IMG/VR virus record: IMGVR_UViG_3300042922_000295 | Coordinates: 1-64,000 of that record | DNA from: a virus | Length of the DNA stretch: 64,000 bases | Reading direction: 5' to 3' (one strand) | Part shown: piece by piece, positions 1-32,213 of the stretch | How positions within the stretch are numbered: position 1 is the stretch's first letter | Layout of the letters: every line of letters begins with the position of its first letter | The notes under the pieces: generated by a model | Seen by the model: only the letters and a program-made list of their open reading frames with translations | The model's database searches: none | What the model was told of the DNA's origin: nothing | Translations under genes and position numbers: made by a program

Positions 1-1
1 G

Positions 2-1498
2 TACAAGAACGACGCCACCTTCCACAAGCTGCGCGAGCAGATGGCGAAGGACTTCGGCTTCACCATCCAGAAGATGCCGGGTGGTGTGACTCACGTCATC
101 GCCCCCGAGCCGGAGCCGGAGGAGGAACCGACGACGACAGCCCCCGGGCCTGTCGTCGTCGGTTCGGAGCCTACGGTTCCCGAATTGGCGCCCGTCATCG
201 AGATGAACGACGACGGGGACCTGCCGCAGTATGTGTTCCCCGCTCTCGACTGGCGCTCCATCGTCCCCGAGAACAGCTTCATCCGCATGTACATGCGGCA
301 GTGCTGCATCGACGATGTCGCCGAAGAGTACCACTTCTGGAACGCAATGGTGGCAGTCGGATTCGCCCTCGGCCGCGAGGCCAGGCTGTTCGACTCTAGG
401 CCGGTGTACGGGAACCTGTTCGTCTGCACGCTCGGCACGTCCGGGTCCGGCAAGTCTAAGGCAGCGGGTTACCTTAACGACTGCGTCGACCAGGCCCTGC
501 CTCACGACTGGACCGACCCCTCGTCTCGGGGCGTTCGCCGCATCGCCACTCCCGGCTCGGCCGAGGTTCTGATCCACAGCTTCATGAAGCCGATCGCGAA
601 CACCTCAAACCCCAAGGTCATCGACTACTACGCACCAGTCAAGGGCCTGATCGACTTCAACGAGTTCTCGCAGCTCATGTCGCGTGCACAGCGCCAGGGG
701 AACGCACTCAAGCCCACCCTGATGCAGTTCTACGACATGGACCGTCTGATCACGTCAAACTCGATCACGACCGGCTCCAAGGAAGCTCACGACCCCTTCG
801 CATCCATCATCACGACGACTCAGCCCGCCGCATTCCGCAATCTCGTCGGAAAGGGTGACGACGATTCGGGATTCTTGAACCGGTGGCTATTCGTTGCCGG
901 GCCGGACAAAAAGAAGATCGCGGTCGGCGGTCAGCGCATCGACGTCTCGCCGTCGGCTCCGTACCTCAAGGCGATTTTCGCCTGGGCTGGACAGTTCCGC
1001 GATAACGAGTTCGTAGAGTGGGGTCCGGAGGCACTGGAGCTGTTCGAGAAGTTCTTCCACGAGACCCTGTATCCGCGCAAGGTGCAGGGAACCTCGGCAC
1101 TGTTCAACCGCATCGACCTTCTCATGAAGAAGGTCATTCTGCTGCTCGCGGGGAACAAGATGGAGCGCGTGGTGTCCGGCAAGACGGTCGAGGATGCCAT
1201 CAGCATCTACGACTACATCATCAAGTGCTACGAGATGCCGCAGGCCGAGCTCGGCAAGACGCTGAACTCCGAAGTCCAGGAAGCTGTGCTGTACCAGTGC
1301 CGCAAGCAGTTCGAGAAGAACCCCCAGGCTGGTGTGACGGTGTCCATCATCGCTCGCAACCTCGCCAGGAGGAACTATCCGAGGGAGATGATCGTGAAGA
1401 CGCTTGACACCCTTGTCAAGCTGGACCTTATCGAACCCGTGGTGTCCGAACCGGGCAAGCGCGGCCGACCGACAACGAGGTACCGCTATGTCGGCTGA
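2..1498 (+). CDS. DUF3987-type P-loop protein (5' truncated)
   Basis: The reading frame is open to the left edge of the window, so the gene very probably starts upstream; the ATG at 41 has no Shine-Dalgarno sequence. After an acidic, Pro/Thr-rich stretch comes a domain with a Walker A motif, GTSGSGKSK, encoded near 434-460. The context before the P-loop (WNAMVAVGFALGRE...GNLFVCTLG) resembles the DUF3987 helicase-like domains found beside phage and plasmid primases. An ATPase role in replication initiation is inferred from that family. The C-terminus (about 1300-1490) looks like a small winged-helix region (SIIARNLARRNYP). Its last 11 nt overlap the next gene. Confidence 0.7.
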   Translation, partial: YKNDATFHKLREQMAKDFGFTIQKMPGGVTHVIAPEPEPEEEPTTTAPGPVVVGSEPTVPELAPVIEMNDDGDLPQYVFPALDWRSIVPENSFIRMYMRQCCIDDVAEEYHFWNAMVAVGFALGREARLFDSRPVYGNLFVCTLGTSGSGKSKAAGYLNDCVDQALPHDWTDPSSRGVRRIATPGSAEVLIHSFMKPIANTSNPKVIDYYAPVKGLIDFNEFSQLMSRAQRQGNALKPTLMQFYDMDRLITSNSITTGSKEAHDPFASIITTTQPAAFRNLVGKGDDDSGFLNRWLFVAGPDKKKIAVGGQRIDVSPSAPYLKAIFAWAGQFRDNEFVEWGPEALELFEKFFHETLYPRKVQGTSALFNRIDLLMKKVILLLAGNKMERVVSGKTVEDAISIYDYIIKCYEMPQAELGKTLNSEVQEAVLYQCRKQFEKNPQAGVTVSIIARNLARRNYPREMIVKTLDTLVKLDLIEPVVSEPGKRGRPTTRYRYVG

Positions 1499-1856
1499 CC
1501 ACGACGTGAACCTTCTCCGGAACGCCTCGATCGAGTGGGTCGAGAACGGCCGTCTCGTTCTTCAGCTCTCCAATGGCGACAGGCTCATCCTCGCGCAGGA
1601 CGTTTACGACGAGCTGTGCGACGGCGAATACTCCAACCGGCAGCACTACAGCCGCGCCACCTACGCCAAGGGGTGCCGTGGCCCGATGTGCCGTCTCGCT
1701 GAGACACACCGGGGCCGCAAGCGCAACGCCGACCGCGCCCACGAGGGCGGGCGGGAGTACCGCGAGGGCTTCCGCACTAACGACAGGTCGGTCGAACTCG
1801 CGCCGATCATCACGTGGCACCTCGCGACCCGGGGCCGCAAGATACGCGAGTCCTAG
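1488..1856 (+). CDS. small basic protein with GCRGPMCR motif
   Basis: A 122-residue protein. The ATG at 1488 overlaps the end of the upstream P-loop gene, so the two are translationally coupled. The segment HYSRATYAKGCRGPMCRLAE followed by a basic stretch (HRGRKRNADRAH) matches a short motif (Y.KGCRC..CR) that recurs in small actinophage proteins. The Cys pair and basic tail suggest nucleic-acid or metal binding, but no function is known. It is the last gene of its transcript; a strong terminator begins 9 nt after the stop. Confidence 0.75.
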   Translation: MSADHDVNLLRNASIEWVENGRLVLQLSNGDRLILAQDVYDELCDGEYSNRQHYSRATYAKGCRGPMCRLAETHRGRKRNADRAHEGGREYREGFRTNDRSVELAPIITWHLATRGRKIRES

Positions 1857-1864
1857 AAGCAGAG

Positions 1865-1900
1865 AAACCCCCCGGCTGGAATCCAGCCGGGGGGTTTCTT
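1865..1900. terminator. bidirectional Rho-independent terminator
   Basis: A perfect 15-bp stem (AAACCCCCCGGCTGG, 1865-1879; CCAGCCGGGGGGTTT, 1883-1897) with a 3-nt loop. T-rich ends lie in both directions. It sits between convergent genes ending at 1856 (+) and 1907 (-). Confidence 0.93.
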
Positions 1901-1906
1901 GTGCCC

Positions 1907-2650
1907 TTATTGCAAGGCGCCTCGTTGGATCGGCGGTAGGTCGCCGGACAGGTTTCCAGTCGCATAGTCGTACGCGACGTCAGCGATGTGCCCGATGAGC
2001 GACCCGTCGAACTCGTCGCCGCAGATACACCCGGGCTCCGTCTGCGAGATGGGGCCGTGGTGCTCCTCGACTAGCGCCACGACCTGCTCGGGAGGGCGCC
2101 GTGCCCACATGTGACCCTCGAAGATGAGGGACCCATCCTTGTCGTGGTTGAACTCCACCTCAACGCGGGGCACCTCGCCCACGGCATGCGTGAAGGTGAC
2201 GAAATGCACACCGTCGAGCGAGGTGCCGTTGACCACGACCTCTGTAGTGGAGGGCGAGATGTTCTGCACCTTCACCATGCCAGACTTCGGAATGCGGGAC
2301 TTGACGTTGGTGCGCTCGGCCTGCGTGGTGTACTTCTTGGCGCTGCACTTGGGGCAGTAGTAGCGCGTGACAACATTGCCCTCGATCTCGTCTGGAAGCC
2401 AGGCGTGTTCGCACGACCCAGAGGTGGGAGCTCCGCCCACAACCTCCAGAGGCCCGTTTCCCAGGGAGTCCTTGAAGACCTGTGGCGGCTCAGTGCCCAC
2501 CTCCCACCACAGGTCGGAGTTGCAGATGAAGCAGTTGACGAGATACCGACCTTTGGTGTGACCCAGATCAGTTCGTACGTGACCCCACTGGTGCCTGTCG
2601 TCGCGACAGCAGGCGACAGTGCGGTCGAAGTCCCAGCTCAGCTGACCCAC
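1907..2650 (-). CDS. hypothetical protein with zinc-ribbon-like region
   Basis: 247 residues from GTG 2650, which has AAGGAG 8 nt upstream. This start overlaps the preceding gene's stop by 13 nt; longer starts would run through most of that gene. Residues around 60-115 hold paired Cys/His (FICNSD, CEHAW, YYCPKCSAKKY), typical of a structural zinc site. The C-terminal part has a further Cys pair (GCICGDEF). Last gene of the leftward operon, ending 7 nt from the shared terminator. Function unknown. Confidence 0.65.
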   Translation of the reverse strand: MGQLSWDFDRTVACCRDDRHQWGHVRTDLGHTKGRYLVNCFICNSDLWWEVGTEPPQVFKDSLGNGPLEVVGGAPTSGSCEHAWLPDEIEGNVVTRYYCPKCSAKKYTTQAERTNVKSRIPKSGMVKVQNISPSTTEVVVNGTSLDGVHFVTFTHAVGEVPRVEVEFNHDKDGSLIFEGHMWARRPPEQVVALVEEHHGPISQTEPGCICGDEFDGSLIGHIADVAYDYATGNLSGDLPPIQRGALQ

Positions 2651-3330
2651 CTCCAGTTCTCCTTGCCAGCCTTGAAGCCGCCGCACACCTGGCATTGCGT
2701 GCCCGTGATGCTCCCCACCATGGCGCGTGCCGTTCGCGTGTGCGAGCAGGCGTCGACCTCTTCCTTGGTGTACTGACGCTTCTCGTTGCACCCGTGGCAG
2801 ATCTTCCAGCCGCGCCGCATGTGGTGGTGCTCCCACTCGTGCTCGTGCGGCTGCTCCTCCAACACGGCCTCAAGCAGGACTGCCGCGCCGTCGAGCCACA
2901 TGATGCGAGTGTGCCCGCCGTGCCCGTGGACCTTCAGCGCGTCGTCGGCGGATGCGTACGTGATGGTGGAGGCCGTGTCCCCACGCCAGCGGAGCGTCAC
3001 GGTGCCGTCAGTAAACTGCACCCCGTCCGCGATGACGCCGGTGCCCGAGACGCCTGTAACGTCGTGAGAGCGGATGAGGACGAACTTGCGGAACCCCTTG
3101 GTCGGCGCACCCTCGCGCTCATCGTGCGGCTCCAGGCCGGGGCCGAACACCGCGACCTCCATCTGCACGAGGGTGATCGCGTCCATGAGTGCGCAGAGCG
3201 CCGGGTGGGTCTCCTGGAGAGACTTCCCGGCGCGCTGCTTGGGGTGGACCGACTCGTTGGCTTCCTGCATGGCCTTGGTGAACGCCGCTGAGAGCTGGTT
3301 CGCAGCAGCCTGGATGACACGGAGGTCCAT
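2638..3330 (-). CDS. hypothetical protein, C-terminal zinc-finger-like motif
   Basis: 230 residues. The N-terminal half is helical (MDLRVIQAAANQLSAAF...). A middle beta-rich part carries FTDGTVTLRWRGD. The C-terminal 60 residues are His/Cys rich (HEHEWEHHHMRR, CHGCNEKRQY, CQVCGGFKAGK), with two CxxC pairs about 35 residues apart, the spacing of a zinc-binding fold. It shares one base with the next upstream gene (3330). No recognised family. Confidence 0.7.
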   Translation of the reverse strand: MDLRVIQAAANQLSAAFTKAMQEANESVHPKQRAGKSLQETHPALCALMDAITLVQMEVAVFGPGLEPHDEREGAPTKGFRKFVLIRSHDVTGVSGTGVIADGVQFTDGTVTLRWRGDTASTITYASADDALKVHGHGGHTRIMWLDGAAVLLEAVLEEQPHEHEWEHHHMRRGWKICHGCNEKRQYTKEEVDACSHTRTARAMVGSITGTQCQVCGGFKAGKENWRWVS

Positions 3331-3581
3331 CAGTCGACCTCCGGCTTGGTGGGCTCTTCGGTGGCATCGAGCAAGGCCTCGCCGACCATCCGGAGAACCT
3401 TGTTCCCCAGGTCTCGGGCGAGCACCGGGTTCTCGGCCTGTATCGACTCGGCGTAGGCGATGATCGCGTTGACGGCGTGAGGGTCGTGCTTGGGGTCCAA
3501 GACGAACACCCAGCAGTTGTCGTGCTTGCCCTCCGGGTCGTTGATCTTCTTGACCTCGTAGCGTGCTTCCAGGCCCTTCAC
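3330..3581 (-). CDS. small conserved phage protein
   Basis: 83 residues. It starts KGLEARYEVKKINDPEGKHDNCWVF and continues VLDPKHDPHAVNAIIAYAES. That N-terminal pattern is a frequent short protein of unknown role in actinophages (recognised from memory, not searched). Coupled on both sides: it shares a base with the downstream gene and overlaps the upstream gene by 4 nt. No membrane segment or known catalytic motif. Confidence 0.75.
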   Translation of the reverse strand: MKGLEARYEVKKINDPEGKHDNCWVFVLDPKHDPHAVNAIIAYAESIQAENPVLARDLGNKVLRMVGEALLDATEEPTKPEVD

Positions 3582-3808
3582 GATACCTCCTTGTAGGGGA
3601 CGAGCAGTGCGGCCAGGGCGCAGATTGCGCTGGCGATGAGGGGGAGCAGGGCGACGGGGGTCAGGTTGCCGCTGATGATGACGAACCAGACGAACCCCGC
3701 CAGGGCGCCGATGCTGGCGCTGAAAAGGAGCTTCGCACCGTAGCGCATCTCGTACCGACGCGGCGGGGCGGGCTTCTTGGCGATCACTGTTGCGTGTCTA
3801 CCTTTCAT
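3578..3808 (-). CDS. small membrane protein, two TM segments
   Basis: 76 residues. A basic N-terminus (KGRHATVIAKKPAPPRRYEMRYG) is followed by two hydrophobic helices at about 28-48 and 52-70. The arrangement predicts an inner-membrane hairpin with the N-terminus in the cytoplasm. Function unknown; a membrane-targeted host-takeover role is possible but not shown. Confidence 0.7.
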   Translation of the reverse strand: MKGRHATVIAKKPAPPRRYEMRYGAKLLFSASIGALAGFVWFVIISGNLTPVALLPLIASAICALAALLVPYKEVS

Positions 3809-3810
3809 CG

Positions 3811-4005
3811 TTACTCGTCGTGGAACGTGGGCGTTGCGCGAGCAACCCGGCAGAACCAGTAGGTCTCGTATCGCTTGTACACGTCACTGTACGTGACGTG
3901 CATCCAGGAGGGTGTGCCGTCTCCGCGCTTGAGGAAGCGCAGCGCCTGGCCGCAGAGCTTGCAGGTGTCCTTCTTGACCGGGGTCTCGGGGGTCTCTTCG
4001 CTCAT
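3811..4005 (-). CDS. small CxxC protein
   Basis: 64 residues from ATG 4005, which overlaps the previous gene's stop (ATGA). Contains TCKLCGQALRFL and a later WFCRVAR, i.e. a CxxC pair and a single Cys. The same layout (CxxC near the N-terminus, HxxWFC downstream) appears in its upstream neighbour at 4002-4208, so the two are probably tandem duplicates. Confidence 0.7.
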   Translation of the reverse strand: MSEETPETPVKKDTCKLCGQALRFLKRGDGTPSWMHVTYSDVYKRYETYWFCRVARATPTFHDE

Positions 4006-24007: not shown

Positions 24008-24285
24008 CCACCGAGCCGACCGTGGCGCCACGGGTGCCACGCGCCCCGCACACGGGCGCCGACGCCCCGGCCGCTACCCCGGTAGCCTCCGACGAGGAGC
24101 GGCCGTCCACGGGGCGCACGCACGACCGGGCATCTTCCCGCCAGTGGCGAGACGGCATGCTCCTCATCAACCTTCTACCGTCTCAGCGTCGAGACGGGAC
24201 GATGGCCGTGGTGGACTCCCGTGGTCGCATCCGCGACTACGACAGTGGCGAGCTGCTCGCCGTGACTAGAAGGAAGTCGAAGTGA
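24004..24285 (+). CDS. hypothetical basic protein
   Basis: 93 residues from GTG 24004 (GTGA overlap with the previous stop). The N-terminal half is a Pro/Ala/Thr-rich disordered stretch. The C-terminal half (ASSRQWRDGMLLINLLPSQR; VVDSRGRIRDYDSGE) is more ordered and basic. No known family. Overlaps the lipoprotein gene by 4 nt. Confidence 0.65.
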   Translation: MTTEPTVAPRVPRAPHTGADAPAATPVASDEERPSTGRTHDRASSRQWRDGMLLINLLPSQRRDGTMAVVDSRGRIRDYDSGELLAVTRRKSK

Positions 24286-24560
24286 AGAAGGCACTCGCAC
24301 TTGCTGCGGCGGTCGCTGTTGCACTCGTCGCCACCGCATGTACCCCCGACATGGAGTCGGGGGTGGTGATCGCCAAGGACCACCAGTCGGGACACTGGAT
24401 GCACTGCGGCAAGGGCTGCATGATCTGGAACGACGAGGAGTGGAACCTCCGCATCCAGGGGGTCAACGAGGAGGGCGAAGAGGCTACCGGCTGGGTCGAC
24501 GTCCCCATGGAGGTTTGGGACGCCACCGAGGTCGGCGACGAGTACCCTCCCCGTGGTTGA
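24282..24560 (+). CDS. predicted lipoprotein
   Basis: 92 residues from GTG 24282. A lipoprotein signal peptide is clear: basic start KK, hydrophobic core LALAAAVAVALVA and lipobox VATAC with Cys20. The mature part is short and acidic with two more Cys (MHCGKGCMIW). It should be lipid-anchored on the outer face of the membrane. Phage lipoproteins of this kind are known as superinfection-exclusion factors in some systems; that role here is inference. Confidence 0.8.
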   Translation: MKKALALAAAVAVALVATACTPDMESGVVIAKDHQSGHWMHCGKGCMIWNDEEWNLRIQGVNEEGEEATGWVDVPMEVWDATEVGDEYPPRG

Positions 24561-27512: not shown

Positions 27513-28113
27513 GCAGGGTAGGCCGCGCAACGCCAAGGCTGCTGAAGGTCTGATCAGCAAGCACCGTGTGGCGTGGCTGGAGACCTTCATCGGCCACGTC
27601 TACATCATGATGTATCCCGAGGGTCACGCCGACGAGACCGACGCACCCTCAGTCAAATCAGAACCCGGCCCGACACTCCGGCTGATGTTCGTCAAGAACG
27701 GGCGTCCGATCTACTGGACGCTCACGGCGCTGACATCAGATGAGCTCGACAAGCTCAAGACCCTTCTCGACATGGCCTTCGACATCGCTCGCCCGATAGT
27801 CGAGGAAAGAGACAAGGCGGCACAACATGCGTACGACACCCAGGGTGACGACTCTATCGCCCGACTCTATCGCGCAGTTTCGCGCCTCATTGTGCGCGAG
27901 GGGGCGATCACCGAAAACAGCACAAGCGTACGGCAGCGACCTGAAGACGATGCTGCTGGACCTGGAGGACCCGGAGATTCCGATGAAGGACTTCGAGTCA
28001 TCGGCCCAGAACTGGCTGACGTTCAACCGGAAGCTGGTGGGGTACAAGACGACGGGACGCAGGCTGACGAGTCTCCGGGCGTTCGCCCGGTGGGCTGGAT
28101 GGCCGACCTCTGA
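27505..28113 (+). CDS. hypothetical protein overlapping the recombinase gene
   Basis: Up to 202 residues from TTG 27505 (GGAGG 6 nt upstream). Residues 1-140 look like a real protein (LKTLLDMAFDIARPIVEERD; QGDDSIARLYRAVSRLIVRE), the last part resembling the usual C-terminus of a small actinophage family. The frame then continues to 28113 inside the recombinase gene with a low-complexity sequence. The overlap with the recombinase is 287 nt, unusually long. The frame may have lost its original stop when the recombinase gene was joined on. Confidence 0.6.
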   Translation: MARQGRPRNAKAAEGLISKHRVAWLETFIGHVYIMMYPEGHADETDAPSVKSEPGPTLRLMFVKNGRPIYWTLTALTSDELDKLKTLLDMAFDIARPIVEERDKAAQHAYDTQGDDSIARLYRAVSRLIVREGAITENSTSVRQRPEDDAAGPGGPGDSDEGLRVIGPELADVQPEAGGVQDDGTQADESPGVRPVGWMADL

Positions 28114-28663
28114 CCTCGACGAGTACAAGGCGCCTTCTGCCCCGCCGACCCAGCCTCACCCGATCCCCGAGGGCGTGGACGGACTTCGTCGCATGGTTGC
28201 GGCGGCGCGAAAGCCGAGCCATCGTGCACTAGTGGCGTTGTGCGGTTTCATCGGCTGTCGAGTCGGCGAGGCTCTCTCTGTCCGACCTAGCGACATCGAC
28301 CTCGGGTCGATGGTCCTGAAGGTCGACGGCAAGGGCGACAAGATTCGCTTCGTCCCCATCTCCACCGAGGCGTGGGGGTACATGGCGGATGCAGTAACAG
28401 CAGCTTTCCTGAACGGTGACGAGCGAATCATCAACGTTCAGGAGCGGGTGGCACGTCAGAACATCACCACCCTCGCGAAGCGCGCCGGACTCTCCCGGCA
28501 CGTTTCCTCGCATGACCTGCGGTCGACGTTCTCGACCGCTGTGTACGACAAGACGGGCGACATCCGTCTTGTGCAGGAACTCCTCGGGCACTCGTCCGTG
28601 GAGACGACCCAGATCTACATTGGCGTCAAGCACCAGAAGATGCGCGACGCTGTGGAACTGTGA
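27827..28663 (+). CDS. tyrosine recombinase (integrase/Xer-like)
   Basis: 278 residues. An N-terminal SAM-like core-binding domain (SPDSIAQFRASLCARGRSPK, TAQAYGSDLK) precedes the catalytic domain. All active residues can be placed: R145 (GCRVGEAL), K172 or K169 (KGDKIRF), H229-x2-R232 (HDLR), H255 (LLGH) and nucleophile Y264. It is compact, nearer to XerC/D-like phage enzymes than to large integrases. It begins inside the upstream frame and ends 15 nt before a surface-protein gene, so no room for an adjacent attP exists on either side. Site-specific integration or dimer resolution are both possible. Confidence 0.9.
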   Translation: MRTTPRVTTLSPDSIAQFRASLCARGRSPKTAQAYGSDLKTMLLDLEDPEIPMKDFESSAQNWLTFNRKLVGYKTTGRRLTSLRAFARWAGWPTSDLDEYKAPSAPPTQPHPIPEGVDGLRRMVAAARKPSHRALVALCGFIGCRVGEALSVRPSDIDLGSMVLKVDGKGDKIRFVPISTEAWGYMADAVTAAFLNGDERIINVQERVARQNITTLAKRAGLSRHVSSHDLRSTFSTAVYDKTGDIRLVQELLGHSSVETTQIYIGVKHQKMRDAVEL

Positions 28664-28678
28664 CGAAGGGAAGTGATC

Positions 28679-29908
28679 GTGAAGAAGCAGATCATCAGCA
28701 GCATCGCGGCCGTGGGCCTGGCCCTCGGTAGCATGCTGGCGGGGGCAAGCGTCGCCGCCGCCGAGGAGGCACCGTCGACCGGCGTGTGCGTCCCGGCTCC
28801 GGCAGTCCCCGCGACCACGGAGGAGCGTCTCGTCACCGAGGCGTGGGTCGAGACGATCGTGCACCCGGCCGTGACCGAGGAGGTCGAGCACGACGCTGTC
28901 TACGAGACGGTCGAGCACCCGGCCGAGACCGTCGACCACCCGGCCGAGACCGTCGACCACCCCGCCGTCTACGAGACGGTCGTCATCGTCGAGGCGCAGC
29001 CCGCCGTTCCGGAGGTTCCCGAGGTCAGCCACACGGACTACGTGTGGAAGAACTGGATCACCCAGGAGCGTCAGGTCACGCACGACTCCAACTCGCCCGG
29101 GTTCTTCTGGGCGAAGGTCGGCACCGAGAAGCATGTCACCCAGGAGTACGTCCCGGGCAAGCCCGCCGTCGAGGAGGTCACCGAGCAGCGTCTCGTCAAG
29201 GAGGCATGGAGCGAGACCGTCAAGGAGGCGTACACCGAGACGATCAAGGAGGCGTACACCGAGGAGGTGCTCGTCACCGAGGCCTGGACCGAGACGGTCG
29301 TCATCGTCGAGGCGCACACCGAGAAGATCGAGCACGACGCCGTCTACGAGACGATCGATCACCCGGCGGTCGAGGCGATCAAGTGCCAGGACGGTGTGAC
29401 GGTCACGGCCAGCACGCGGTGCCTCGACGGCACCGCCTACGTCGGCGTCCGTGTGGTCAACAACACGGGCGGCGCACTCACGGTGAAGTCCGGTCCGACG
29501 TCCGATGTCGCCTTCGCGGCGAACGAGGTCGCGGCGGGCGGGAACTTCTACCAGTCCTACAACCAGCGTGCCGCAACCCTGGACGCGGGCAAGGTCGTCG
29601 TCGCCCTGAAGAACGCGGGCGGCGCGTGGACGTCCACGGCGCGCTACACGTCCCTGGACTGCGAGGTCACGCCCGTGACGCCGGAGAGCCCGGCGCCCTC
29701 CAACGCGGCGCCCGCACCGGCGCCCACGGTGACGCAGGTCAGCAACCCGGTGGTCAACGAGGCGAACCCGACCGAGACGCTGTCGGCGCAGGAGGGTAGT
29801 ACGCTCGCCAGCACGGGAGCGAACACCCGCCTGTTCGGCATCGGCGCGGGCATCCTCATCCTCGGCGGTGTCGTCATCATGGCGACTCGCCGGTTCAGCA
29901 GCAACTGA
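28679..29908 (+). CDS. secreted LAxTG (sortase-anchored) repeat protein
   Basis: 409 residues from GTG 28679, with AAGGGA 7 nt upstream. A Sec signal peptide (KKQIISSIAAVGLALGSMLA then GASVAAAEE) precedes a region of about 190 residues built from short degenerate repeats of the types HPA-E-T-V-D, Y-E-T-V and EAYTET-I/V. Then comes a beta-rich domain with two Cys (KCQDGVTVTASTRCLDG) and a Pro/Ala linker. The C-terminus is a full cell-wall sorting signal: LASTGA, a hydrophobic stretch and a basic tail RRFSSN. LAxTG is the motif used by class E sortases of actinobacteria. Predicted to be displayed on the host surface; receptor masking or lysogenic conversion are possible roles. Confidence 0.87.
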   Translation: MKKQIISSIAAVGLALGSMLAGASVAAAEEAPSTGVCVPAPAVPATTEERLVTEAWVETIVHPAVTEEVEHDAVYETVEHPAETVDHPAETVDHPAVYETVVIVEAQPAVPEVPEVSHTDYVWKNWITQERQVTHDSNSPGFFWAKVGTEKHVTQEYVPGKPAVEEVTEQRLVKEAWSETVKEAYTETIKEAYTEEVLVTEAWTETVVIVEAHTEKIEHDAVYETIDHPAVEAIKCQDGVTVTASTRCLDGTAYVGVRVVNNTGGALTVKSGPTSDVAFAANEVAAGGNFYQSYNQRAATLDAGKVVVALKNAGGAWTSTARYTSLDCEVTPVTPESPAPSNAAPAPAPTVTQVSNPVVNEANPTETLSAQEGSTLASTGANTRLFGIGAGILILGGVVIMATRRFSSN

Positions 29909-29925
29909 TCCATCCGCTCGAAGTC

Positions 29926-29949
29926 GGGCTGGAGCCTCGGTTCCAGCCC
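29926..29949. terminator. terminator-like hairpin
   Basis: GGGCTGGAGC-CTCG-GTTCCAGCCC, 10 bp with one G-T pair, 18 nt after the surface-protein stop. Confidence 0.65.
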
Positions 29950-29974
29950 GGCCTCGGACTGATGTTATCAGCCC

Positions 29975-29995
29975 GACCCGACACAGCGAAAGGAG
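29975..29995 (+). promoter_or_regulatory. leader element GACCCGACAC...AAGGAG
   Basis: Recurrent leader with a longer spacer before AAGGAG, 6 nt before ATG 30002. Confidence 0.6.
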
Positions 29996-30001
29996 TTCCC
30001 G

Positions 30002-30244
30002 ATGGCCGAGAAGCTTCTGGTCTTCGAGAACAACCTCGGAGAGCGTGCGTTCATCAACGCGATCACCTCCGAGGTCAACCCGAGGTCCGGTCACCGCGAG
30101 GTGTACCTGAAGGGCTTCGACACGGAGGCAAAGCCGGTGTCCTACCCGGCTGACCTCCTCCTCGACGGACGCCTCCACGTCGAGCGCGGGATCGCGGTCC
30201 GGTGGCACTTCAAGCGATCGGAGTACACGGGTGCCGCAGGCTGA
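30002..30244 (+). CDS. hypothetical protein
   Basis: 80 residues, beta-rich: AEKLLVFENNLGERAFINAI, SGHREVYLKGFDTEAKPVSY. No Cys or membrane helix. Overlaps the following gene by 14 nt. Confidence 0.6.
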   Translation: MAEKLLVFENNLGERAFINAITSEVNPRSGHREVYLKGFDTEAKPVSYPADLLLDGRLHVERGIAVRWHFKRSEYTGAAG

Positions 30245-30968
30245 CGCCGCCTACGATCTCCGGTACACCGACCGGGACGTACGGGAGGACCCCCGTCTGA
30301 CCGAGCTGGCCATCGCCTACCTCGGTCAGTACGGCGGGGACTTCGAACCACTCGTGGGCGCGCAGCGCATGCTGCGCGCTCGCGGGGGGCTCACCACGGC
30401 AGTGACACGCAAGGTGTTGAACTGCATGCGCCACGACTGGAACGTCGCAGGCGAACTGCCCGAGCCCAAGGGCTACAGCCTAGGGAGCAACGTCGTGCCT
30501 TTCCCGAAGCAAGAGCCCGAGCCCGAGCCGCCACCGCCGCTCGGTAGCCCGAGGTGCAACATCAAGGCGCTGCATCATTCTCACAGCGTCCCGGCCCTCT
30601 TCGAGAACCAGTACCGTGGCTGGTGCCCAGGCGTGCGAAACGAGCGAGAGGTTCTCATTCGCCCCGCCAGGGTTAAGCACGAGTTTCTCATCGGCAAGAC
30701 GGGGCGCCTGATTCACAGACTCAATCCGTGGCACCCACCCGTCGTCATCTGGGAGCCCAACCAGTATGACGACACGGGGTGGGACAAGGTCTACCTCAAG
30801 GTATGGACGCAGTGCAAGAACCCGGGCAACATCAAGTCGCCCATCGTCATGTCGTACTTCGAGGCTGCATCGCTGTGGGCGACGGGCGAGCGTAACATCG
30901 GATACGCAAAGCCGGTCGCGCTGAGCCTGTGCATGAACTGCTTTCCCAGGGGAGATCTGAATGCGTGA
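30231..30968 (+). CDS. hypothetical protein
   Basis: 245 residues from GTG 30231. The N-terminal 85 residues are helical, with LAIAYLGQYGGDFEPLVGAQ and RMLRARGGLTTAVTRKVLNC. This arrangement resembles the N-terminal segments of several actinophage proteins in which it precedes other domains. A Pro-rich hinge leads to a basic beta-rich C-terminal half with three Cys. Function unknown. Confidence 0.6.
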   Translation: MPQADAAYDLRYTDRDVREDPRLTELAIAYLGQYGGDFEPLVGAQRMLRARGGLTTAVTRKVLNCMRHDWNVAGELPEPKGYSLGSNVVPFPKQEPEPEPPPPLGSPRCNIKALHHSHSVPALFENQYRGWCPGVRNEREVLIRPARVKHEFLIGKTGRLIHRLNPWHPPVVIWEPNQYDDTGWDKVYLKVWTQCKNPGNIKSPIVMSYFEAASLWATGERNIGYAKPVALSLCMNCFPRGDLNA

Positions 30969-31131
30969 GTTCGCGCTCATGAACGGTGACACGGTGGTAA
31001 ACATCGTGCTCACCAACAAGACCAAGGAGCAGGTGGAGCGCACCGCCTCGGAGGGCTACAAGGTGGTCCCCATCGAGATGGTGCCGCGTGCTTCGCTGAC
31101 CCGCTACAAGTACTGGAAGGAGCGGTCCTGA
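30961..31131 (+). CDS. 56-residue hypothetical protein
   Basis: ATG 30961, overlapping the previous stop by 8 nt, with GGGGAG before it. MREFALMNGDTVVNIVLTNK is typical of small phage proteins with a short beta-hairpin, followed by a helix and basic end (RYKYWKERS). Stop TGA 31129-31131 abuts the next ATG at 31132. Confidence 0.65.
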   Translation: MREFALMNGDTVVNIVLTNKTKEQVERTASEGYKVVPIEMVPRASLTRYKYWKERS

Positions 31132-31395
31132 ATGGACATGGCCCAGGCCCTGGAGTGGGCTGCCAAGTTCGCTGAGGACACCAAGCTGTTCGAGCCGGTC
31201 CTCAACGCTCGCGGCTACGCGGACGGCTGGAAGCCGCCGGACCCGCACGACAAGTCGGTCATCATCACCGAGCTCGCCAAGACGGTGGTGACCCCGGTCG
31301 TGAGCCTCAACGACGTGTCCAACGTCTGCATGCACGGCGCGCTCATCTGTGCACCGTGTGACTTCATCCCGCCCTCGTGGCGCCCGAGCGAGTGA
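31132..31395 (+). CDS. hypothetical protein
   Basis: 87 residues starting directly after the previous stop (TGAATG). Helical N-terminus (AQALEWAAKFAEDTKLFEPV), then a C-terminal Cys pair (CMHGALICAPCDF). Function unknown. Confidence 0.6.
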   Translation: MDMAQALEWAAKFAEDTKLFEPVLNARGYADGWKPPDPHDKSVIITELAKTVVTPVVSLNDVSNVCMHGALICAPCDFIPPSWRPSE

Positions 31396-31403
31396 GGACA
31401 GGA

Positions 31404-32213
31404 ATGGCAGAGACAACGACCGCCGAAAAGTTCTGCACCAAGAAGGTCAAGAACGAGTACGGCGAGCAGGTGCCCTGCGGGCAGCGCCTGAAGGGGGAGT
31501 GCCGGAACCGCAAGAACCACGTCGGCAAGTACAAGACGGGGTTCTGCTCGAACGGGTTCTGCGAGGGGGTGAGTGTCAAGTCCCCTCGCACCGGCAAGCC
31601 GATGAAGCACTGCGAGGCATGGCAGACGTGCGGGTGCCAGTGCCACGTCGGCGTCGACAAGCTCTTCATCATGACGAAGATGCCTCGCGTCCACCAGGAC
31701 ATGTCCGGCTACAGCCCGCCGCACAGCCCGTACAAGATGCCGACCGCCGAGGAGCGTGCACTGCTGCACGCCGCCGCGAAGTCGAGCACGCCCGACAAGC
31801 CCGTAGTCGTCATCGAGTCGCCCGCCCCCGGGCTGGTTCCCCCGACGATCCAGCGCGAGTTCAAGGAGACTCCGACCGGCCGCGCCGGGCGCGGTCAGCT
31901 CGAATACCGGGTGAAGGAGTTCTGCGACGAGTACCTGGTCGCCACGCTGGACCTCGCCTGCACACCGAAGGCCGTGGCCGAGGGCATCGCGAAGAAGTAC
32001 GGGATCGAGCCGCCGAGCCAGGGTGCCGTCGATGCCGTGTTCAAGCGGTGGGTCGCGCTCGACTTCGCCATGGTCGCGAGCAAGCCGACGCGCTTCATCG
32101 GGTACACGCCCGAGGGCGCGAAGCTCGGCCTGGAGGCCATGAAGGTCCAGGCCAAGCAGCGTGCCAAGTCGAAGGAAGCGGAGTCAGCGCGCACCTTGCG
32201 TCCGCGCAAGTAA
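31404..32213 (+). CDS. hypothetical Cys-rich N-terminus, helical C-terminus
   Basis: 269 residues from ATG 31404. The first 85 residues contain ten Cys (for example CTKKVKNEYGEQVPCGQRLK; CEAWQTCGCQCH), a likely multi-zinc module. The C-terminal 120 residues (LEYRVKEFCDEYLVATLDLA...PKAVAEGIAKKYG...GAVDAVFKRW) look like a DNA-binding helical domain with HTH character. A regulatory role is possible. Confidence 0.6.
   Translation: MAETTTAEKFCTKKVKNEYGEQVPCGQRLKGECRNRKNHVGKYKTGFCSNGFCEGVSVKSPRTGKPMKHCEAWQTCGCQCHVGVDKLFIMTKMPRVHQDMSGYSPPHSPYKMPTAEERALLHAAAKSSTPDKPVVVIESPAPGLVPPTIQREFKETPTGRAGRGQLEYRVKEFCDEYLVATLDLACTPKAVAEGIAKKYGIEPPSQGAVDAVFKRWVALDFAMVASKPTRFIGYTPEGAKLGLEAMKVQAKQRAKSKEAESARTLRPRK

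Follow-up and report, generated by a model that had tools for sequence, protein, structure and literature searches.

A predicted sortase-anchored repeat protein encoded beside the recombinase of a probably lytic phage, with a tentative role in superinfection exclusion

Directly downstream of its tyrosine recombinase, an uncultured phage encodes a repeat protein, predicted to be secreted, that ends in an LAxTG-type sorting signal. The position raises the question of whether the gene serves lysogenic conversion, of which the arrangement had been called typical in an earlier note on this DNA, or whether a lytic phage would have a use for a protein displayed on the wall of its host. The window analyzed here is a 64-kb stretch of an 84,497-bp IMG/VR virus record, with the tail and packaging genes on its minus strand and the early genes on its plus strand.

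Gene and Reading Frame

An open reading frame at positions 28679–29908 (+) codes for a protein of 409 amino acids.

28679..29908, plus strand: LAxTG wall-anchored repeat protein gene (predicted; 409 aa, from sequence)
28664..28678, plus strand: 15-nt gap with Shine-Dalgarno-like AAGGGAAG (from sequence)
29923..29952, plus strand: 13-bp hairpin without a U-tract, possible terminator (z -5.0)

The recombinase stops at 28663 and is followed by exactly 15 nt (CGAAGGGAAGTGATC) up to the GTG at 28679, so the spacing reported earlier holds to the nucleotide. This start is preferred over an upstream GTG at 28673 because the Shine-Dalgarno-like AAGGGAAG lies about 7 nt ahead of it. The third-position GC of the gene is 0.93, matching the real genes of the window, and codon usage gave no signal of horizontal origin, with a value of 0.152 that lies between the extremes of nine other genes of the phage (0.083–0.178). 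The hairpin that had been described as the gene's own terminator does form a strong 13-bp stem, but it lacks a U-tract and a terminator scan calls none 3' of the gene; a terminator function is possible.

Architecture of the Protein

The features of the protein are as follows.

28679..28765, plus strand: predicted signal peptide, residues 1 to about 29 (KK and hydrophobic core, by sequence)
28787..28789, plus strand: Cys37, N-terminal partner in the conserved Cys pair around the repeats (Cys at a similar place in every phage and host member tabulated)
28799..29383, plus strand: irregular HPA / EAYTET / AWTETV repeat tract, residues 41–235 (sequence; common to host proteins L093–L099 and phage proteins)
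29018..29164, plus strand: Trp insert EVSHTDYVWKNWI..PGFFWAKVGTEKHVTQEYVPGKP, residues 114–162 (HMM from other members; shared 10-mer)
29384..29386, plus strand: Cys236, closing partner in the Cys pair around the repeats (sequence; member comparison)
29393..29665, plus strand: Ig-like β-sandwich of ~90 aa, residues 239–329, with Cys248 and Cys328 (221 related genome stretches; AF2 pLDDT ~94 over most of it)
29666..29803, plus strand: Pro/Ala-rich linker, presumed wall-spanning (sequence)
29804..29905, plus strand: class E-type sorting signal of LASTG, hydrophobic stretch and RR tail (sequence)

The polypeptide thus runs from the signal peptide through Cys37, the repeats with the Trp insert, Cys236, the β-sandwich and the Pro/Ala linker to LASTG, a hydrophobic stretch and a terminal RRFSSN. 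Inspection and hydropathy place KK, a hydrophobic core and ASVAAA at the N-terminus, the four Cys are found at residues 37, 236, 248 and 328, and the sorting signal reads LASTGANTRLFGIGAGILILGGVVIMATRRFSSN. The Cys-bearing domain (Cys248/Cys328) and the complete sorting signal that the earlier note had described are seen in the sequence, and the signal peptide is likewise predicted here. Among the window's ORFs of 100 codons or more, no other combines LxxTG with a hydrophobic tail, a combination that codon-shuffled controls produce at 0.04 per window.

The repeat tract covers about 195 residues and is built of HPA, AxYETV and EAYTET units, broken by the Trp-rich insert. It is real in composition but irregular, as no fixed period beats shuffled sequences (best lag 9, 0.176; shuffle maximum 0.194). 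A 190-residue tract of short repeats, as claimed previously, can be retained in its composition and approximate extent (residues 41–235), but not as a periodic array. In the AF2 model the tract has pLDDT values mostly below 50 and is uninterpretable.

The β-sandwich matches a module that is widespread at the C-terminus of secreted enzymes (Cellulosimicrobium, Nonomuraea, Microbispora and others), and a sorting signal was found in none of 60 ORFs carrying the module. The fold matches are middling and generic (Z up to 9.0, with Z 8.5 to a Trueperella lacto-N-biosidase domain). For this reason no function is drawn from the module, which was dropped as a clue.

Anchoring by a Host Sortase

A PF04203 search of the phage record found no sortase of its own, nor were further LAxTG proteins found in the phage. 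Class E sortases recognise LAXTG (PMC5148588), and the class E sortase model NF033747 scores over its cut-off in seven of the seven bacterial genomes that encode homologous proteins, in line with the earlier reading of the signal as one for host wall anchoring. The window protein is very probably anchored to the wall, through a class E sortase presumed in its host.

Given the type of signal, the protein would be exported by Sec, the class E sortase of the host would cut LASTG between Thr and Gly, and the cleaved protein would be joined covalently to the host peptidoglycan. The Pro/Ala linker would span the wall, and the Cys-bracketed repeat domain and the β-sandwich module would be displayed on the infected cell. 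Established class E substrates such as the Streptomyces chaplins ChpA–C (PMC5148588) have LAxTG, a hydrophobic stretch and a basic tail in common with the window protein, besides a signal peptide, which is predicted here; as for these substrates, the bacterial genomes with homologues encode a class E sortase. By contrast, the window protein comes from a probably lytic phage, its repeat ectodomain is unrelated to the chaplins, and its anchoring is predicted.

A Family Common to Host Chromosomes and Lytic Phages

The LAxTG protein as a whole falls outside the families of Pfam, PHROG and NCBIfam. A search with the repeat region in 396 genomes (Micrococcales) gave one chromosomal protein with the same plan. 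A profile of the window protein and one host protein had no matches over 396 phylum genomes, a set without a positive control. A two-sequence profile matched 7 of 200 genomes within one Micrococcales family, that of the first chromosomal match. The host homologues (L093–L099) carry a signal peptide and AWTETV/HPA repeats bracketed by Cys; they also have a Trp insert, such as VQYEWINAFAHWKKQWAATDPGFGWVKTG, and end in LAATG or LATTG signals.

An alignment of the host proteins with the window protein led to two IMG/VR contigs of 136.5 and 95 kb, both with signal peptide–repeat proteins ending in LAQTG or LAATG. The protein of one IMG/VR contig matches 132 Microbacterium phage records, and a Microbacterium member used as the query retrieves 109 records that overlap this set. 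The 132 records are similarity matches; the anchors were inspected in 12 Microbacterium phage proteins, from Squashvirus, Gillianvirus, Rogerhendrixvirus, Krampusvirus, Quhwahvirus, Mementomorivirus and unclassified phages. All 12 end in LAQTG, LAETG or LATTG followed by a hydrophobic stretch and a basic tail, which together with the two IMG/VR proteins gives an LAxTG end at 14 of 14 inspected phage loci. Since most of the matches that retrieved these loci ran mainly through the repeat region and stopped short of the anchor, the anchors are not there by construction. Two further, near-identical contigs (L126/L127) encode proteins ending in LAHTG, and the NCBIfam model TIGR01167 (LPXTG_anchor) is over its cut-off for two proteins, those of Squash and L102.

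The phage members range from 322 to 693 aa. Squash gp73, RobinRose gp77, Hendrix gp122, Krampus gp58 and ValentiniPuff gp21 have the same plan of signal peptide, Cys, repeats with Trp insert, Cys, linker and LAxTG; they are encoded in the replication regions of lytic phages and annotated only as hypothetical or membrane proteins. Most of these named members differ from the window protein in carrying VGEPTI..NPDYVPA repeats rather than HPA/TETV. They are also without its β-sandwich, to which no match was found in the Microbacterium phage members read. In Hendrix and Rasputia, tblastn finds 7–8 places of family similarity per record, which could reflect either repetition within a single long gene or the presence of several genes.

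Family genes adjoin primase, DNA polymerase, helicase, sigma-factor or similar genes and lie outside the virion module, which suggests that they are expressed during replication rather than with the virion genes. Microbacterium phages of the carrier groups are predicted to be strictly lytic (PMC7302621); the words "sortase" and "LPXTG" do not occur in that paper. The family is apparently undescribed in the libraries and open-access papers searched, although the anchoring principle itself is already known.

The window protein very likely belongs to this phage and host family of LAxTG repeat proteins. Within the candidate set, it matches L102 over residues 41–409 at 7e-12. With a Trp-insert HMM built without it, the window protein scores 21.4 bits, whereas the highest-scoring of 2000 composition-preserving shuffles reaches 12.1. 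An exact 10-mer, KHVTQEYVPG, is common to the window protein and RobinRose gp77, and PEVSHTDYV is common to it and ValentiniPuff gp21. The arrangement of signal peptide, Cys, repeats, Cys, linker and LAxTG is the same in the window protein and in the tabulated phage and host members. Membership is held on these four grounds, namely the L102 match, the motif model, the shared peptides and the Cys-bracketed plan. A direct tblastn against INPHARED (E <= 0.01, default filters) returned no Microbacterium phage member and one repeat artefact only, so the link to the Microbacterium phages runs through intermediates and may in part reflect repeat or compositional similarity. That artefact, a match to the Blautia phage Montmirail, was rejected, as the underlying annotated protein is a different low-complexity repeat, NTGxxGASS.

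Phage Lineage and the Variable Interval

By sequence, the window phage belongs to the DocB7/Reynauld/GordTnk2 lineage: its TerL is 50–55% identical to those of the Gordonia and Rhodococcus phages Jumbo, Perlina, DocB7, Mbo2 and GMA3. The gene order common to the lineage is AAA ATPase, CobT/vWA and, further along, XerC-like recombinase, HTH gene and helicase.

27827..28663, plus strand: XerC-like tyrosine recombinase, 278 aa, probably not an integrase (Pfam PF00589, 1.6e-24; synteny; literature)
28664..31376, plus strand: variable cargo interval from the recombinase to the HTH gene (length comparison with relatives)
31377..32213, plus strand: conserved HTH-type gene beside the interval (phrog_6622, 2.7e-48; 38% and 34% identity to the Perlina and DocB7 proteins)

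The recombinase is syntenic and 33–41% identical in Perlina, DocB7, Mbo2, Jumbo and GMA3. The match of the HTH protein is confined to its C-terminal part in Mbo2 and Jumbo, and no match was found in GMA3. The interval between the two genes measures 2.7 kb in the window, 0.3 kb in Perlina, 1.1 kb in DocB7, ~1.3 kb in Jumbo and ~6.7 kb in Mbo2. In the stretches fetched from these five relatives, the LAxTG gene was not found. The interval of the window also carries ORFs at 30002–30244, 30231–30968, 30961–31131 and 31132–31395, and a family search with the ORF at 30231–30968 gave no match.

Phages of this lineage are held to be lytic, with no repressor found and the recombinase judged unlikely to be an integrase (PMC13313380), and GordTnk2, Gmala1 and GordDuk1 did not yield lysogens (PMC4563357). 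The window phage, itself uncultured, is probably lytic as well.

Several minor observations concern the genome. Its ends (window 1–3831 and L005 667–4497) overlap by 3.85 kb at 93.7% identity, and the genome is for this reason probably circular or permuted, about 80.6 kb long, and assembled from two co-existing strains. A LysB homologue is not detectable, though Perlina and DocB7 have LysB, which suggests a host without mycolic acids. At 24282–24560 of the window there is a small secreted protein with a lipobox-like VALVATAC that matches phrog_4392, of no assigned function. A virion-region protein of 1272 aa (L004 423–4241) combines PhoD-like phosphatase and LamG-like domains.

Possible Function

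The gene would be a cargo gene of a probably lytic phage, from a family that occurs both in lytic phages of Micrococcales and in some of the host chromosomes. What the sequence itself shows is the architecture, family membership, lineage and genomic context, the lack of a phage sortase and the class E sortases of the homologue-bearing genomes. The simplest use of a wall coat on a doomed cell would be to keep out further phages or to prevent progeny from being lost on that coat. The protein might alter the surface of the infected cell during lytic growth in such a way that rival phages and the phage's own progeny are kept from productive infection of the cell or from being trapped on it. Wall-anchored superinfection exclusion is proposed, tentatively, as the most likely function. 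The complete chain, in which a sortase-anchored cargo protein of a probably lytic phage confers exclusion, is put forward with the same reserve; actual anchoring, expression during infection and exclusion are the steps that we infer.

Two known systems offer partial parallels. CwpV of Clostridioides difficile is a wall-anchored repeat protein that blocks infection after adsorption, a resistance resembling superinfection exclusion, and repeat deletions lower its antiphage activity (PMC4737114). Like the window protein, it is a repeat protein displayed on a Gram-positive wall; it differs in being host-encoded and anchored through PF04122 rather than by sortase, with no evident sequence relation to the window protein, for which exclusion is a possible function. 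Ltp, an instance of surface exclusion by a phage-encoded protein, and the Sie lipoproteins of streptococcal and lactococcal temperate phages (PMC3952083) are, as here, phage-encoded proteins of the host surface. They are lipid-anchored and belong to temperate phages, whereas the window protein and its relatives have a sortase-type signal, lytic carriers and a larger repeat ectodomain. As to what a coat might mask, binding of OneinaGillian is abolished by periodate and not by proteinase K (PMC9224216), so its receptor is probably a carbohydrate, which a protein coat could cover.

An unlikely alternative is that the protein stiffens or cross-links the wall or aggregates cells, thereby delaying premature lysis or keeping infected cells in a biofilm. 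The Cys pair that brackets the repeats would suit such a part, as would the β-sandwich in common with secreted enzymes, and the homologues in some host chromosomes suggest a general surface role; they also weigh against the exclusion reading, in that they argue for a cellular role of the family beyond defence against phages. The variable length and repeat content of the members (322–693 aa) agree better with a surface that is exposed and diversifying than with a structural part of fixed form. Less likely again, the phage picked up a host gene for a surface protein and has retained it by chance or for some transient benefit in its niche, without a specific role in infection. Bacterial chromosomes carry homologues, the interval is variable and the gene did not turn up in any of the five relatives compared; its retention across many phages of several genera, with sorting signals intact in all inspected, argues otherwise.

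Lysogenic conversion, in which the recombinase would be an integrase and the adjoining gene would alter the surface of lysogens, is improbable. In its favor are the tyrosine recombinase directly upstream across a 15-nt gap and the matches of this enzyme to PHROG integrases. The enzyme is, however, a XerC-like protein of 278 aa kept in lineage members described as lytic, and in the stretches fetched the relatives have it without the LAxTG gene. The reading loses its basis because the lineage is considered lytic, no repressor has been identified, the recombinase is unlikely to be an integrase and lysogens of the three phages named above were unobtainable. Nor did homologues in prophages, which the earlier note had proposed to search for, come to light as such: those found sit in host chromosomes and in lytic phages, among them Microbacterium phages predicted to be strictly lytic, and none in a known prophage. 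Virions often contain repeat-rich proteins, but a tail or head decoration with a coincidentally hydrophobic C-terminus is the most improbable reading of all, given that every inspected member has a signal peptide and a complete sorting signal and that the family genes lie in replication or regulatory regions.

Superinfection exclusion remains the preferred reading, and a broader form of it is offered with slightly more caution still: strictly lytic Micrococcales phages of several unrelated genera may commonly carry early host-sortase substrates that re-coat the wall of the doomed cell, giving a sortase-dependent exclusion of competitors that also spares progeny from binding there. The surface-exclusion proteins known from phages of Gram-positive bacteria come mainly from temperate phages and are membrane proteins or lipoproteins. 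If the reading is correct, obligately lytic phages use a host enzyme to rework the outer face of the wall of doomed cells, by way of a widespread and unnamed family of sortase substrates. A recombinase neighbor would also be a poor sign of lysogeny in the DocB7/Reynauld/GordTnk2 lineage, and annotations would be corrected. Family genes are at present labeled hypothetical, membrane protein or, wrongly, glycosyltransferase. The last label is attached to Paschalis gp81 (L112 2498–3823), in fact a surface protein with a signal peptide, repeats and LAQTG, and Quhwah gp85 bears the same one.
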